Both the position numbers and the translations under genes were made by a program. Positions 7,714-19,054 of a stretch of DNA of 20,290 bases are shown one piece after another. Under the pieces are notes generated by a model. It made no database searches. It was given only the letters and a program-made list of their open reading frames with translations, and was not told the origin of the DNA. The DNA comes from a virus. Every line of letters begins with the position of its first letter. Within the stretch, counting starts at the first letter, position 1. Where the stretch lies: IMG/VR virus record IMGVR_UViG_3300034418_000737, positions 1 through 20,290 of that record. One strand, 5' to 3'.

Positions 7714-7731
7714 TGTATAACACTTTCAATG

Positions 7732-8835
7732 TTACTCACTGACGTTCGATTTTACACATACGTTTCTCTGTGTCAATGCACTATTTGCACTTTCATATGT
7801 GTGTTTCATGTATGGACGAACAGAACTCACATGATTGTGACCAGTCACAGACATGATCTGTGGCAGTGGCACACCCTTGTCCACCATCTGTGTTACACCA
7901 GTCCTACGTAAGTCCATCAGCCTCAGTTCCTCTGGCAGACCAGCCTCTCTCATGATACGTCTACCTGTTTTGGATAGACGCTCCATTCTATACGGACTAA
8001 ACACACCGCCTTCTGACTTAGGATATGGTGCAACGTATTTCTGAAAACCAAAGTCACTCTTCTGTTGCTTGAGCATGTAATGAAGATCATCTGATATAGG
8101 CAAGAATACTTCTGCCCTACGCTTGCTCTGTCGCAGGTATAACTGACGTGCTTCCATGTCTATGTTGTCCCAAGTAAGCACTCGCATATCACCCAACCGT
8201 TGGCACCATTCGTATGCCATCTGCACTATGAGTCCGACATTACGATATTCAAAAGAAGAATAAGCAACATCAAGAAAGTTGATAACATGTTCGTGTTCCC
8301 ATACTACCTTCCTTTGCTTTGCCTGTTTGCGTTTGATGTTACCAAACGGATTGACCGTAGCCTCTTCCATTGTGATGGCGTAGTTGAACACTCTGCTTGA
8401 CGCAGTAGCCACATGATTAGCAAAACTGACACCACGTTTCACCCATTCTTCGTATACTTGCTTTGCAACCTTAGATGTAACAGACAGGTATGGCTTGCTA
8501 CCAATTGCCGCACACAACTCAGACAAACAATAACGATAATCAACTTTAGTTGTGTCACGTAACATGCTGAAATCATTAGACTGATAGTAGAAGTCTACCA
8601 AGTCAGCAACGGTGCTACTCTTATTAAGTTTAACAATCTTAGATTGTTCTTCACGATACTTATCAATGCGATTGTTATACTCCCTCACTACCTTACGTGC
8701 TTCACGAATGTCACTTGGCAACTCACCACGTTCAACAAGGCCAGCGTCTACCCATTTCTGTGGTGGGTTGTAACGATAGGTGATGCCGCCAGATGGCGAC
8801 ACCCTTTGTTGCACATAGCGTGGTAGCTTAGGCAT
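7732..8835 (-). CDS. int: tyrosine recombinase / phage integrase
   Basis: A 367-residue integrase. The start is the ATG at 8835, which overlaps the upstream stop as TAATG; a longer reading from 8877 would run into the DUF932 gene. An N-terminal arm-binding region and a core-binding domain (about 70-165) precede the catalytic domain. Catalytic positions are Arg213 (QRLGDMR), Lys238 (QSKRRAE), Arg310 in MDLRRTG, His333 in TGHNH and Tyr342 in RPYMKHT. The usual His of the HxxR box is Met307 here, a substitution known to be tolerated at this position. It lies inside the replication array rather than next to a repressor, and no att site or tRNA is visible beside it. Confidence 0.92.
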   Translation of the reverse strand: MPKLPRYVQQRVSPSGGITYRYNPPQKWVDAGLVERGELPSDIREARKVVREYNNRIDKYREEQSKIVKLNKSSTVADLVDFYYQSNDFSMLRDTTKVDYRYCLSELCAAIGSKPYLSVTSKVAKQVYEEWVKRGVSFANHVATASSRVFNYAITMEEATVNPFGNIKRKQAKQRKVVWEHEHVINFLDVAYSSFEYRNVGLIVQMAYEWCQRLGDMRVLTWDNIDMEARQLYLRQSKRRAEVFLPISDDLHYMLKQQKSDFGFQKYVAPYPKSEGGVFSPYRMERLSKTGRRIMREAGLPEELRLMDLRRTGVTQMVDKGVPLPQIMSVTGHNHVSSVRPYMKHTYESANSALTQRNVCVKSNVSE

Positions 8836-10123: not shown

Positions 10124-10438
10124 TCAATAATATATTGGGCTGTTTACTTTAGGTCCAACGTTGGACTTATTAGTTTCGTGTTCAAACATTACGTCTTTAC
10201 GAACACGCCAGTATACCCAACTGAACTGGCAGTGGTTTGCATCACGGAACACATACCACGCCACAAAATCTATGATCGGCACGAAGTTAAACTTACCCTC
10301 ACGCTTCCAGCCCCAGTTACGGGCACTGAATGTTTGGTTACTTGGTCCGAACATCAGGACGTTGAACAGGACTGACAGGGCTATCCCTATCCTGCTCACG
10401 TAGTTTATCAAAGTCTTTCCATTCATCGCATGGATCAT
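10124..10438 (-). CDS. small membrane protein carrying a palindrome-encoded tail
   Basis: A 104-residue protein with a hydrophobic segment (about 15-30, SRIGIALSVLFNVLMF) and a second, shorter one (FVPIIDFVAWYVF). Conserved-looking stretches QTFSARN, ID and HCQFSWVYW recall, from memory, a small phage membrane protein family often near lysis genes. Its C-terminal 15 residues include KSNVGPK, encoded by the 14-bp palindrome at 10153-10166. That tail may be an insertion. It overlaps the SleB gene region. The ATG at 10438 is used; one at 10426 is possible. A partner role with the hydrolase is inferred. Confidence 0.65.
   Translation of the reverse strand: MIHAMNGKTLINYVSRIGIALSVLFNVLMFGPSNQTFSARNWGWKREGKFNFVPIIDFVAWYVFRDANHCQFSWVYWRVRKDVMFEHETNKSNVGPKVNSPIYY
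10153..10166. repeat. palindrome copy R1 (perfect)
   Basis: GTCCAACGTTGGAC is a perfect 14-bp palindrome within TTTAGG..ACTTAT context. It lies near the 3' end of the membrane-protein gene and encodes SNVGP on the minus strand. It is the leftmost of six same-orientation copies. Confidence 0.85.
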
Positions 10439-11467: not shown

Positions 11468-11604
11468 GCAATCCTTTTCTTTTGCAGCATTCGTTTGGTC
11501 ATACGGGCAAGCTCACGCTTACGTTTCCACTCATCACGTTTGATGGGTTTAGGTCCAACATCGGACTTAACAAACTTAATAAAGTTTTTCATTTCGTAAC
11601 GCAT
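11464..11604 (-). CDS. 46-residue basic protein containing palindrome R2
   Basis: A reading frame of 46 residues (MRYEMKNFIKFVKSDVGPK...), very rich in Lys and Arg, ending KRMLQKKRIA. AAAGGA lies upstream of the ATG at 11604, and an internal ATG at 11592 is possible. Residues 14-19 (SDVGPK) are encoded by the palindrome copy at 11553-11566. The stop overlaps the next start (ATGATG). High charge suggests nucleic-acid binding. It overlaps the upstream gene by 29 bases. Confidence 0.6.
   Translation of the reverse strand: MRYEMKNFIKFVKSDVGPKPIKRDEWKRKRELARMTKRMLQKKRIA
11553..11566. repeat. palindrome copy R2 (degenerate)
   Basis: GTCCAACATCGGAC, one step away from the R4/R5 variant, with the same TTTAGG and TTAA flanks as the other copies. 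It is inside the 46-residue gene and encodes SDVGP; the variant base changes Asn to Asp but keeps the frame. Confidence 0.8.
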
Positions 11605-11728
11605 TTTGCTTTTCCTTTCTGCTAAGCTTGCGTTTGTTACCCTTCTTAGGTGGTATGACCTGTGGGGCTTTGCGCTCTTGCAGCATAGCCTTTGCCACAG
11701 GGTTTACAATCCCCACTTTTGGTTTCAT
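11576..11728 (-). CDS. 50-residue basic protein, unknown
   Basis: The ATG at 11728 overlaps the upstream stop (ATGA), which decides this start over one at 11758. The 50-residue product is strongly basic, with a Lys/Arg run after a Pro-rich turn (QVIPPKKGNKRKLSRKEK). It may bind nucleic acid. It sits between the 117-residue gene and the 46-residue gene in a run of overlapping small frames. No family is recognised. Confidence 0.55.
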   Translation of the reverse strand: MKPKVGIVNPVAKAMLQERKAPQVIPPKKGNKRKLSRKEKQNALRNEKLY

Positions 11729-12078
11729 ATCACATACACCTTTCTGTCTTGCATCCATGCCAGTGATGCACCATCGAATACGCCTTCGTTGTCTTTGTAA
11801 ACAAAGCTATCATACTTGTATGGGTTGTATGTGATTTCATCCCACATATCAAACCCCCACGGCGTGTCCTGATCTAACAACTTGCCTACTAACCCAGCAT
11901 GAACATTCTTGCGCCGTTCTTTTAAGACACGATTACGCCCTGCTTGAGACACCTTGCCCTCTGGGCTTAGCAACATAACACTGTCACGATGGGCAATCAC
12001 CTTGCCCTTGTTATCGCCTTCCAGTGCCTTAATGGACCACAGCTTGCGGTGCAGGTTATAGTATACAAATACCTTCAT
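11725..12078 (-). CDS. conserved phage early protein (MKVFVYYNLHRKLWS type)
   Basis: A 117-residue protein. The ATG at 12078 is chosen because longer readings overlap the upstream gene deeply. The sequence pattern (MKVFVYYNLHRKLWSIKALEG, then KGKVIAHRDSVML, then KVSQAGRNRVLKERRKNVHAG) is one I recall from many phage genomes as a conserved hypothetical protein, with no known role. It starts one base after the Gp88-like gene's stop and ends in an ATGA overlap with the next gene. It is mixed alpha/beta and not membrane bound. Confidence 0.75.
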   Translation of the reverse strand: MKVFVYYNLHRKLWSIKALEGDNKGKVIAHRDSVMLLSPEGKVSQAGRNRVLKERRKNVHAGLVGKLLDQDTPWGFDMWDEITYNPYKYDSFVYKDNEGVFDGASLAWMQDRKVYVI

Positions 12079-12784: not shown

Positions 12785-12797
12785 AACCTTTCAGGTT
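12785..12797 (-). promoter_or_regulatory. SD hairpin, copy 1
   Basis: AACCTTTCAGGTT on the plus strand; in the mRNA AACCU-GAA-AGGUU forms a 5-bp stem enclosing the SD (AAAGG) of the Gp88-like gene. The same 13 bases occur upstream of the gene starting at 13296. Confidence 0.5.
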
Positions 12798-12802
12798 GTT
12801 AG

Positions 12803-12844: not shown

Positions 12845-12884
12845 GTTATATAACACTTTCAATAAATATCAAGTGTTATATAAC
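12845..12884. repeat. 14-bp perfect inverted repeat around AT-rich centre
   Basis: GTTATATAACACTT and AAGTGTTATATAAC flank a 12-base centre. It contains TAACAC-N16-GTGTTA, the same half-sites as the three control-region operators with 11 more bases of spacing. It lies between two minus-strand genes and lacks a following T-run on either strand, so it looks more like a binding site than a terminator. Confidence 0.7.
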
Positions 12885-13296: not shown

Positions 13297-13301
13297 GTTG
13301 T

Positions 13302-13314
13302 AACCTTTCAGGTT
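13302..13314 (-). promoter_or_regulatory. SD hairpin, copy 2
   Basis: Identical 13 bases to 12785-12797 (AACCTTTCAGGTT), six bases before the ATG at 13296. The SD AAAGG forms part of a 5-bp stem with a GAA loop in the transcript. Confidence 0.5.
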
Positions 13315-13365: not shown

Positions 13366-13962
13366 TTATGCAGCTTTGCTGTCAATCGTCTTGGCATTGT
13401 CAGCATATTCTGCAAGAATATCGTCGATAACATCAAGGATGTTAATGCCATTGACTTTGCAGACAGCTTTCAGCTGTTTAACGATTTCAGCTTTGCTGAC
13501 TACGCTAGGCTGCTCATTAACAGCTTTGCTGTCAGCTTGCTCTGGTCCAACATTGGACTTAACATCACTTTCAGTGGTGGCATCGGCTTCAGCCTTCGGC
13601 TTAGCCTTACGCATTGCAGCTTGTAAAGCTGTGAGGCTGGTAAAACCTTTCTTGCTTTCAGCAATAAACTTGCGGCATTCAACTTCGTTTTCAACGAACC
13701 ACAGTGCTTCGGAGCGACGACGTTTATCCACAATGTGGATTCCACAATCCTTCAGCCTTTGGCTGGAAATACGCTGACCACCCTCGGCTTTCAATTGCTG
13801 AAGCAATTTGCCAAGACGAGTGTCAAAGCCATCGGCTTTCGTGAAGGCATTGAAACGACGAACATCTGCTTTGCAGATCTTTTTCCACTCTGTTGCCAGA
13901 ATGAAGCCTTCAGCTTCAAGAGTGTTGATTTCAGGCTGTTCGATGGTGGTGATGGTGGTCAT
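13366..13962 (-). CDS. first leftward early protein, two-part, with palindrome-encoded linker
   Basis: A 198-residue protein, the first gene of the leftward array. The N-terminal part (about 15-105) is mixed and charged, with ADVRRFNAFTKADGF and a basic KRRRSEALWF segment that could bind DNA. A Lys/Ala/Glu-rich linker follows and includes KSNVGP, encoded by palindrome R5. The C-terminal part is helical (VSKAEIVKQLKAVCKV..ILDVIDDILAEYADN). A structured leader lies directly upstream. The first early gene often encodes a takeover or regulatory protein, but nothing here proves that. I do not recognise the family. Confidence 0.75.
   Translation of the reverse strand: MTTITTIEQPEINTLEAEGFILATEWKKICKADVRRFNAFTKADGFDTRLGKLLQQLKAEGGQRISSQRLKDCGIHIVDKRRRSEALWFVENEVECRKFIAESKKGFTSLTALQAAMRKAKPKAEADATTESDVKSNVGPEQADSKAVNEQPSVVSKAEIVKQLKAVCKVNGINILDVIDDILAEYADNAKTIDSKAA
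13545..13558. repeat. palindrome copy R5
   Basis: GTCCAACATTGGAC inside the 198-residue gene, encoding SNVGP in its linker. The left flank (TCTGG) differs from TTAGG in the other copies; the right flank ACTTAAC is kept. Confidence 0.85.
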
Positions 13963-13973
13963 GGCTTTCTCTT

Positions 13974-14064
13974 TCTCTATCTAATGTTACATTAAGAGAG
14001 TTTACTTATCTCTCACCCTAAAGTGAGATAAGGAAACTATCTATGTAACTAGATTAGATAGAGA
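13974..14064 (-). repeat. 91-nt long imperfect inverted repeat in the leftward leader
   Basis: Left arm 13974-14016 and right arm 14023-14064 around the loop CCTAAA. Paired blocks, outermost first, are TCTCTATCTAAT, GTTACAT, AGAGAGTTT (one mismatch), CTTATC and TCAC, with only small bulges (TAG, TA, TC). In the leftward transcript it would make a strong stem ending about 11 bases before the first start codon. Confidence 0.8.
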
Positions 14065-14083
14065 GATATAGTTTCGGTGTCAA
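14055..14083 (-). promoter_or_regulatory. possible leftward early promoter
   Basis: On the minus strand a perfect TTGACA (14083-14078) is followed after 17 bases by TATCTA (14060-14055). The -35 is ideal but the -10 matches only three of six bases. It overlaps the right arm of the long inverted repeat. Transcription would start near 14048, at the base of the inner stem. Confidence 0.4.
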
Positions 14084-14255
14084 TAGGGCTAATCAAATTT
14101 GTGTAACAAATTACATGCGTATGCGATCCTCTGCGCCTGCCGTTTCACGCATGGTTGCAAGAAATAAATTTACTTCATAAATTTTTTCTGAAACTCACGT
14201 GCAAAACTCACGAGACAGACCGACCTAAGATCCCATGATAGGTGTGGCATTATTG

Positions 14256-14272
14256 CAACAGTATAACTGTTG
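14256..14272. promoter_or_regulatory. 17-bp palindrome, likely operator
   Basis: CAACAGT-ATA-ACTGTTG, perfect 7-bp arms. A third half-site (AACAGT) is at 14292-14297, so copy R6 of the other palindrome is bracketed by ACTGTT and AACAGT. The minus strand also reads TATACT here, a possible -10. Confidence 0.5.
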
Positions 14273-14276
14273 ACAG

Positions 14277-14290
14277 GTCCAATGTTGGAC
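14277..14290. repeat. palindrome copy R6
   Basis: GTCCAATGTTGGAC, the centre inverted relative to R4/R5 (TG rather than CA), in an ACAGG..ACTAAC context. It is the only copy in the control region and directly adjoins the 14256-14272 palindrome. Confidence 0.8.
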
Positions 14291-14486
14291 TAACAGTGAC
14301 ACAGCCTACGGCTCAAACATGTGATGTGCTACATCATGCATGACCATCGAAGATGGGGGTGGTGGGAAATGTGCATCGGCATTGCAACACATCGCCACTT
14401 CACCCCATAGGGGGTGTGACTTTGAAAAATACCTAGGCAACTGATTACATATCAGTTGTTCACATTCACTAAGCCATTGAAAACTG

Positions 14487-14503
14487 TAACACATTCTGTG
14501 TTA
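14487..14503. promoter_or_regulatory. operator O1, TAACAC-N5-GTGTTA
   Basis: TAACACATTCTGTGTTA, perfect half-sites at spacing five. A weak rightward promoter may overlap it: TTGAAA (14477-14482), 16 bases, TGTTAT (14499-14504), with the operator in the spacer and -10. Confidence 0.6.
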
Positions 14504-14815
14504 TGGTGGAATGAAGGCTATGCTATGTGTTTCACCACACGTCATGACAACGTATTATACCCGCAATTGCACGGTGAAAGAGGGGTGGGCAGGGGCCATG
14601 CCGGGGGTATACGTAACTGTATATGGATTCCTACACAGATCAGGAAAAATGAAGTGTTAACCACATTACACTAAAAGTGGTTTACAGTGTACTTGGGTCA
14701 CGTAATGTTGCAATTGTTACAGTACAAAATTTGGTAGGGCACTTTAAGTGAACAGGTGATGTGTTCACGGAATGTTACAGTATATCACAATGTTTGTAAC
14801 ATATACGATTTAGTA

Positions 14816-14844
14816 TTGACATGGGTATGTTGAGCGTGTATAAC
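14816..14844 (+). promoter_or_regulatory. rightward sigma-70-type promoter
   Basis: TTGACA (14816-14821), 17 bases, TATAAC (14839-14844): eleven of twelve consensus bases with ideal spacing. The start would be near 14851, giving a leader of about 225 bases before the first rightward gene. Confidence 0.7.
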
Positions 14845-14857
14845 TATATTATAGAAA

Positions 14858-14893
14858 CTTAGATAACACTTAAAGTGTTACATGTACAGTGTT
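14858..14893. promoter_or_regulatory. operator O2 with repeat unit
   Basis: TAACACTTAAAGTGTTA (14864-14880) has perfect half-sites at spacing five, and eight-base arms in total. It lies about 14-30 bases downstream of the predicted start of the rightward promoter. CTTAGATAACAC (14858) and GTACAGTGTT (14884) recur at operator O3. Confidence 0.65.
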
Positions 14894-14963
14894 TCACTTA
14901 GACGTTTCTATATATTAAGTTAAATATACACTTACTTGTATATAATACTTAAAATAAATAACA

Positions 14964-14986
14964 CTTAGATAACACGTACAGTGTTA
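14964..14986. promoter_or_regulatory. operator O3 with repeat unit
   Basis: TAACACGTACAGTGTTA (14970-14986), perfect half-sites at spacing five, preceded by the same CTTAGA as O2 and sharing GTACAGTGTT with it. It is 106 bases downstream of O2, about ten helical turns. Confidence 0.65.
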
Positions 14987-15027
14987 CACTTAAATGTATT
15001 ATTCCCGAAGGTATAAGATACGTATGT

Positions 15028-15055
15028 CCACGCAGTTTACTGCGGGGGAGTTTTT
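15028..15055 (+). terminator. weak intrinsic terminator or attenuator in the rightward leader
   Basis: CGCAG-TTTA-CTGCG (15032-15044 with flanks), extendable by a CC/GG pair past one mismatch, then GGGGAG and TTTTT. The stem is short and not adjacent to the T-run. Being between promoter and first gene, it could end a leader RNA of about 205 nt. Confidence 0.35.
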
Positions 15056-15074
15056 GTATTAAAGGTTGACTTCT

Positions 15075-15287
15075 GTGAAAAAATCAGTAAAACTATATAC
15101 AGATAATGTCCTTGAAGAGTTTTACCGCCATGCTATGGATGGTACATTGGAGGACTTACACATTCCCCACAGTGATGTATTTTACGTACGTGAAGCCGTA
15201 CAGGCTCACTACGGACGTAGCTTTACGTTGGAAGAAGTTGAGCGTGCTATGAAGTTAGAAGGATGGACAGATGGAAAAGAAGAATGA
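15075..15287 (+). CDS. first rightward protein, unknown (70 residues)
   Basis: I use GTG at 15075, nine bases after AAAGG; a TTG at 15066 directly follows that SD and is too close to it. The product (MKKSVKLYTDNVLEEFYRHAMDG...) is acidic and helical. Its second half (DVFYVREAVQAHYGRSFTLEEVERAMKLEGW) could be a helix-turn-helix-like or small helical bundle, as in some phage regulators, but that is only a shape impression. It overlaps the next gene by 17 bases. Confidence 0.7.
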   Translation: MKKSVKLYTDNVLEEFYRHAMDGTLEDLHIPHSDVFYVREAVQAHYGRSFTLEEVERAMKLEGWTDGKEE

Positions 15288-18601: not shown

Positions 18602-19054
18602 ATGGCTTTCAAGTTATCACAACGTAGTATAAGTAAACTTGAGGGCGTAGACCCTAATATGGTAAACGTTGTAAAGCGTGCCATTGAACTTACACGTGTA
18701 GACTTTGGTGTGACAGAAGGTTTACGATCAGTAAATAGACAGAAAGAACTTGTGGCCGCTGGTAAATCACAAACCATGCGGTCTAAGCATATTGAAGGTA
18801 AGGCAGTAGATCTGGTAGCGTATATTGGCAGTGATATTGCATGGGAACTAAACCTTTACGATGATATTGCTGATGCTATAAAGCAAGCTGCAGACGAACT
18901 AGATGTACCCGTACGTTGGGGAGCAGCTTGGCACATTGACGATATTCGTACTTGGAACGGCAGTATGGAAGAAGCAATGAATGATTATATTGATCTTCGT
19001 CGTAGCCAAGGTCGCAGACCATTTATTGATGGCCCGCATTTTGAACTTTCGTAA
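18602..19054 (+). CDS. M15 peptidase endolysin
   Basis: A 150-residue zinc peptidase of the M15 (VanY/L-alanyl-D-glutamate or D-Ala-D-Ala peptidase) family that cuts peptide cross-links of the cell wall. Zinc ligands are visible: SKHIEGKAVD (His63 and Asp70) and DGPHFEL (His146). TEGLRSVNRQ (38-47) matches the substrate-side loop. A good SD (ACAGGAGTTACT) precedes it. No signal peptide, so it needs a holin to reach the wall; holin-like and lipoprotein genes follow. This is the main lysis enzyme of the window. Confidence 0.92.
   Translation: MAFKLSQRSISKLEGVDPNMVNVVKRAIELTRVDFGVTEGLRSVNRQKELVAAGKSQTMRSKHIEGKAVDLVAYIGSDIAWELNLYDDIADAIKQAADELDVPVRWGAAWHIDDIRTWNGSMEEAMNDYIDLRRSQGRRPFIDGPHFELS

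Follow-up and report, generated by a model that had tools for sequence, protein, structure and literature searches.

A conserved late promoter and a lattice of palindromic cores, a probable operator array, in HMO-2011-type phages

The late operon of HMO-2011-type phages is preceded by a conserved promoter, and this promoter is followed by an array of short palindromic sites. We consider it probable that two of these sites, O2 and O3, are the strongest two members of an operator array, at which a dimeric protein encoded by the phage would bind DNA and restrain late transcription. The array was analysed in the window, i.e. the whole stretch of 20,290 nt, a contig of IMG/VR that belongs to an HMO-2011-type roseophage with CRP-1, CRP-345 and HMO-2011 as relatives. 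Phages of this type have been described among the most abundant ocean viral groups (PMC6918029). Under the terms searched, the group papers PMC6918029 and PMC9038755 make no mention of a promoter or operator in these phages, and the literature found for HMO-2011 together with operator or promoter concerns, by titles, other phages or topics.

The Roseobacter phages CRP-1 and CRP-345 were the top phage-record matches, each aligned to about 30% of the window with 73-74% identity. Both carry, in the same order, a tyrosine integrase, primase, helicase, thymidylate synthase and DNA polymerase. The leftward genes (below 13962) are this replication and integrase set, the early operon, while the rightward operon begins at 15066 and includes an endolysin at 18602-19054, with terminase and portal further on in CRP-1. 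The control region is the 1.1-kb gap (1103 nt, 13962-15066) between these divergent operons. The features on its late side are listed below.

14816-14844, + strand: rightward (late) promoter TTGACA-N17-TATAAC, with the -35 at 14816-14821 and the -10 at 14839-14844
14864-14880, no strand: O2, putative proximal operator, with the conserved core CACTTAAAGTG at 14867-14877
14881-14891, no strand: O2b, second lattice site CATGTACAGTG, 14 bp past O2; the 13-15 bp spacing recurs in relatives
14895-14904, no strand: O2c, half-site CACTTAGACG, 14 bp past O2b
14929-14939, no strand: isolated weak half-site CACTTACTTGT, a weak assignment from sequence alone
14970-14986, no strand: O3, putative distal operator, with the core CACGTACAGTG at 14973-14983; identical in L111, the closest relative
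14987-14997, no strand: O3b, lattice site CACTTAAATGT, 14 bp past O3
15066-15287, + strand: first gene of the late operon, 73 codons as listed, mean column identity 86%

Relatives were gathered by protein searches, and their rightward control regions were aligned on the promoter. The sequence-only reading had placed O2 just 3' of a near-consensus rightward promoter, and this is borne out, since TTGACA-N17-TATAAC is matched in the window and conserved in relatives. The family consensus is TTGACA-N16/17-TAAAAC, and in 40 non-redundant relatives TTGACA-N16/17-TAAAACTA is found, followed by CAC-N5-GTG. By consensus only, the promoter would be of the host sigma-70 type, as its hexamers and its spacer (within 16-18 nt) agree with that type and are conserved. 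Relative to the inferred start at about 14851, O2 occupies approximately +13 to +29.

Among 40 non-redundant relatives, CAC-N5-GTG was counted 73 times, compared with 0-5 times at any other gap from 0 to 11. The proximal core is present in 93 of 94 non-redundant relatives, starting 11-38 nt past the promoter end, and the distal core in 78 of the 94. The array consensus consists of palindromes of the form CAC-[GT]TA[AC]A-GTG, spaced on a lattice of 13-15 bp and arranged in two clusters ahead of the first late gene; CACTTAAAGTG is the consensus proximal core and CACGTACAGTG the commonest distal form. At the proximal sites, the information content of the six outer bases is 1.8-2.0 bits, and all aligned proximal cores have A at position 8. 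The lattice of the window runs through 14867, 14881 and 14895 (proximal) and through 14973 and 14987 (distal), and the half-site spacings in relatives peak at 13-15, 28, 47-48, 61-63, 75-76 and 89-90 bp. The lattice has a period of about 14 bp and does not follow the helical repeat of 10.5 bp. What is repeated is an inverted-repeat site with conserved sequence and geometry, placed at a fixed position relative to the promoter, as expected of an operator array.

The array is also nearly exclusive to this phage family and linked to its first late gene. Composite scans for promoter plus core, using two promoter forms, over the 2.9 million viral contigs of IMG/VR returned 90 and 85 stretches. It was found that 160 of 161 newly fetched scan loci encode the 73-codon first late gene, and at the lone exception the sequence ends 130 bp past the site. 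Across the whole genomes of relatives, the cores are concentrated in this region, with few strays. Among the isolates, CRP-1 and CRP-345 have the array, and HMO-2011 has CACTTAAGTG (N4). The core had no match in CRP-2, CRP-9, CRP-13, CRP-207 and CRP-603, in which the first late protein is 47-49% identical. In CRP-13, several TAC-N5-GTA occur in the same place as the array, which might hint at a phage regulator co-diverging with its sites; this point is weak because the stretch is AT-rich.

The analysis had started from three reported sites of the form TAACAC-N5-GTGTTA. All three are present and exact, at 14487-14503 (O1), 14864-14880 (O2) and 14970-14986 (O3), and the window holds no further exact copy. 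When the 1103-nt intergenic region was shuffled 300 times with its dinucleotides preserved, no palindrome with a given half-site and gap occurred twice, against three identical ones observed. The sites had been taken to share a signature of identical six-base half-sites around a free centre, and here the relatives tell otherwise. The full TAACAC/GTGTTA is carried by only 2 of the 93 proximal sites and 2 of the 78 distal ones, so the half-site first noticed is an extended local form, and the 11-bp core CAC-KTAMA-GTG is conserved in relatives with its centre included. From the aligned relatives, the conserved unit appears to be this 11-bp core with a constrained centre, and the 6-bp half-sites appear mostly local to this phage. 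The proposal that the sites are operators of a dimeric protein is upheld for O2 and O3, which lie behind the conserved promoter and share the conserved core with its fixed N5, but not for O1. Conservation in close relatives, or the lack of it, had been named beforehand as what could refute the proposal, and it divides the sites in the same way: O2 and O3 are conserved and O1 is not. In L111, O3 is letter-perfect and is the only such site, while at O2 the left core is kept and the right side is shifted by one base. One further site with a single mismatch (7718-7734) was rejected; it overlaps the region where the primase gene starts, and what is conserved there is a different element.

O1 belongs to another part of the control region, about 310 nt upstream of the late promoter and in another block than O2 and O3.

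14487-14503, no strand: O1, hairpin TAACACA-TTC-TGTGTTA, apparently no operator of this family; relatives have different self-complementary stems there
14436-14648, no strand: conserved noncoding block that holds O1, bounded by GGCAACTGATTnCATAaCAGTTGT (14436-14459) and TACACAGATCAGGAAAA (14632-14648)

Of 69 non-redundant relatives, 30 form a perfect stem at the position of O1, with 5 bp or more and a loop of 3 or 4; these stems have 19 different sequences (for example, CACATC-TTT-GATGTG, CATATC-TTT-GATATG and ATACC-TTC-GGTAT). The remaining relatives have no simple stem at the exact O1 centre. When this stretch was shuffled, the stem count had a mean of 0.4 and a maximum of 3, compared with the 30 observed. 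Since the stems vary in this way, TAACACA-TTC-TGTGTTA is one of many self-complementary stems found there, and the hairpin at this position appears to evolve by compensatory change. It is very improbable that the three exact sites all serve a single regulator as operators, with O1 among them. Their half-sites and spacing are letter-identical in this phage, and three such sites by chance are very unlikely; nevertheless, O1 was rejected as a third operator because it breaks the invariant core position (T at position 8, where every aligned proximal core has A) and because relatives carry other hairpins, with 18 other stems, at the same place. By this comparison, O1, O2 and O3 do not appear to form one set: O2 and O3 belong to the family-wide array, and O1 would be a hairpin that resembles them by chance.

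For 83 of the 92 distinct sequences, the noncoding block around O1 is 211-214 nt long, with a largely variable interior. RNAalifold of the whole block yielded neither a convincing global fold nor a clear strand, no known RNA family was found in it at the Rfam gathering score, and weak miRNA and snoRNA matches were discarded as chance. We also rejected GGCAACTGATTnCATAaCAGTTGT as a phage attachment site, as a bacterial genome scan gave 14 matches with 0 in tRNA; the SAR116 match sits inside an apparent coding gene. The block contains several hairpins and is possibly a new structured RNA or an origin. Just past it, at 14650-14690, a nearly invariant hairpin TGTTAACCAC...GTGGTTTACA is kept in most relatives. 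It is a tentative and rather doubtful idea that the region of about 14100-14800, between the divergent promoters, might be a large new structured RNA that would form an early/late switch together with the operator array.

Within the early operon, a fourth site with the same half-sites at a spacing of 16 had been proposed at 12851-12878. These coordinates fall within another element.

12845-12884, no strand: separate conserved hairpin GTTATATAACACTT-N12-AAGTGTTATATAAC, in the early operon between two early genes

The N16 element does exist, but its spacing is not fixed, being about 14 in L111. As a helically phased fourth operator it was rejected, because the loop varies over 10-13 nt in relatives and the outer arms co-vary, changing, by eye, from GTCT/AGAC to GTGT/ACAC to GTAT/ATAC. 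The hairpin itself is conserved in dozens of relatives, and one locus (L238) has two copies of it. Other repeats were noticed on the early side as well. The palindrome GTCCAACRTTGGAC (G-C variant GTCCGACATCGGAC) occurs six times in the window, at 14277-14290 and near 10152, 11552, 12803, 12979 and 13545. Each relative genome has 4-6 copies, most of them within a single early-region stretch. It is found between genes and also in frame inside genes, encoding (K)SNVG(P); it presumably resembles the P22 Mnt operator, a likeness that serves as a lead only. Small inverted repeats AACCTgaAAGGTT (near 12786-12800 and 13299-13312) overlap likely ribosome-binding sites of leftward genes.

The search for the regulator concerned the genes on both sides of the control region, with the following features on the leftward side.

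13366-13962, - strand: first gene of the early operon, 198 aa, candidate regulator, predicted all-helical
14053-14083, - strand: weak candidate leftward early promoter TTGACA...TCTAAT (N19); a similar TTGACA-TATACT in L113 and L143
inside 11576-11758, - strand: 50-aa basic protein ...NPVAKAMLQERKAPQVIPPKKG..., candidate only

On the late side, relatives suggest that the real start of the 73-codon gene may be the GTG at 15075. Its protein is acidic (pI 5.1), and the structure search gave Z of at most 2.6 with a model too poor for a meaningful search (pLDDT 63.5). The protein is always linked to the array, which is equally expected for a first gene that is merely regulated. The 198-aa early protein has a basic N-terminal domain and an all-helical model, for which one confident structural match was obtained, in the viral library only. 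It was recognised upstream in 48 of the 76 operator-bearing loci that extend at least 2 kb in that direction, leaving 28 of 76 without it. Using hhalign, an HMO-2011 protein was found to be homologous to it, and no homology was found for three proteins of about 200 aa that replace the gene in some loci. The 50-aa basic protein is present in every operator-bearing locus whose early region extends over at least 7 kb (41 of 41), and it has no Pfam or PHROG match. With Pfam and PHROGs, no helix-turn-helix gene was confidently matched among the window or CRP-1 proteins tested; the sole hint was HTH_11 in CRP-1 gp03, with an E of 0.0018, which is below the cut-off.

The most likely role of the array, judging from its arrangement, would be that of a switch restraining late transcription. 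It would span the first 120-150 bp transcribed from the sole conserved late-operon promoter, and dimers would bind the CAC-N5-GTG cores of the proximal and distal clusters. As neighbouring cores are 13-15 bp apart in two clusters, cooperative binding is probable. Bound dimers would block the start or the escape of host RNA polymerase, and the tandem cores just past the inferred start would fit promoter-escape repression by a cooperative dimer. The lysis, packaging and structural genes would then be delayed until the regulator is removed or outnumbered. From the sequence we infer that a protein binds the array, that its effect is repression and not activation, and that it sets the time of late expression. 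Counting against this account, sites 3' of the start could act in RNA, lattice repeats beside AT-rich DNA also suit a replication origin, and no regulator was identified among the window and CRP-1 proteins tested.

A replication origin, in which 14-bp iterons beside the AT-rich stretch would be bound by a phage initiator and the promoter would give activating transcription, is unlikely. The tandem period of 13-15 bp in two clusters and the A+T content of 74% in the 150 bp past the promoter do resemble iteron repeats, and the array lies between divergent operons beside a large conserved noncoding block. However, its position is tied to the promoter and the late gene, and no replication initiator was recognised among the window and CRP-1 proteins tested. 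We give low credence, lower still, to the repeats acting in RNA, as CACU-loop-AGUG hairpins of the late 5' UTR for an antitermination or translation factor. Such hairpins would sit within the transcribed leader, CACT-N3-AGTG could fold, and the TAC-N5-GTA of CRP-13 keeps complementarity; on the other hand, the outer bases are almost invariant instead of compensating, A/U-rich stems of 3-4 bp are weak, and a G-A mismatch interrupts the stem of the frequent CACGTACAGTG. The spacing and near-palindromy suit a DNA dimer.

The sites could also bind a host transcription factor borrowed by the phage, as the promoter is host-type and no RNA polymerase gene was noticed in these phages. Such borrowing has scarcely any chance of being correct, since phages that infect different hosts retain the array and the bacterial counts speak against it: the core occurs at the control rate in a SAR116 genome, with no enrichment, and the reversed control outnumbers the motif in 58 genomes of the class to which the SAR116 bacterium belongs (RCA strains not by name). 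The lack of enrichment in these 58 genomes makes a phage-encoded regulator likely.

If O2 and O3 are operators of such a regulator, the late promoter and its defined operator, shared across the family, offer a way into lysis timing in HMO-2011-type phages, and the array can be used to fish for the regulator. A new phage RNA or an origin may lie in the covarying noncoding block next to it, which is a concrete candidate for either.

When compared with known systems, the array shares features with three of them. In lambda OR/OL, clustered palindromic sites at a phage promoter between divergent operons are bound by cooperative dimers of CI or Cro. The palindromes here likewise form small clusters at a phage promoter, in a control region between divergent operons, with binding by cooperative dimers probable. 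Unlike OR/OL, the array has another sequence, an 11-bp core, a 14-bp period, sites 3' of the start and two clusters within one leader, and no repressor gene was recognised here. The iterons of phage and plasmid origins (lambda O, RepA) are tandem repeats of regular period beside AT-rich DNA, as are the repeats of the array, but here each repeat is palindromic, the array is tied to a promoter and no initiator was found. In lac, O1 at +11 is a roadblock or promoter-escape operator centred just 3' of the start, with a second, distal operator. The array similarly has a putative operator centred just past the inferred start plus a distal one; it differs from lac in its multiple lattice-spaced cores and in a distal spacing that follows the 14-bp lattice, not the 10.5-bp helical repeat.
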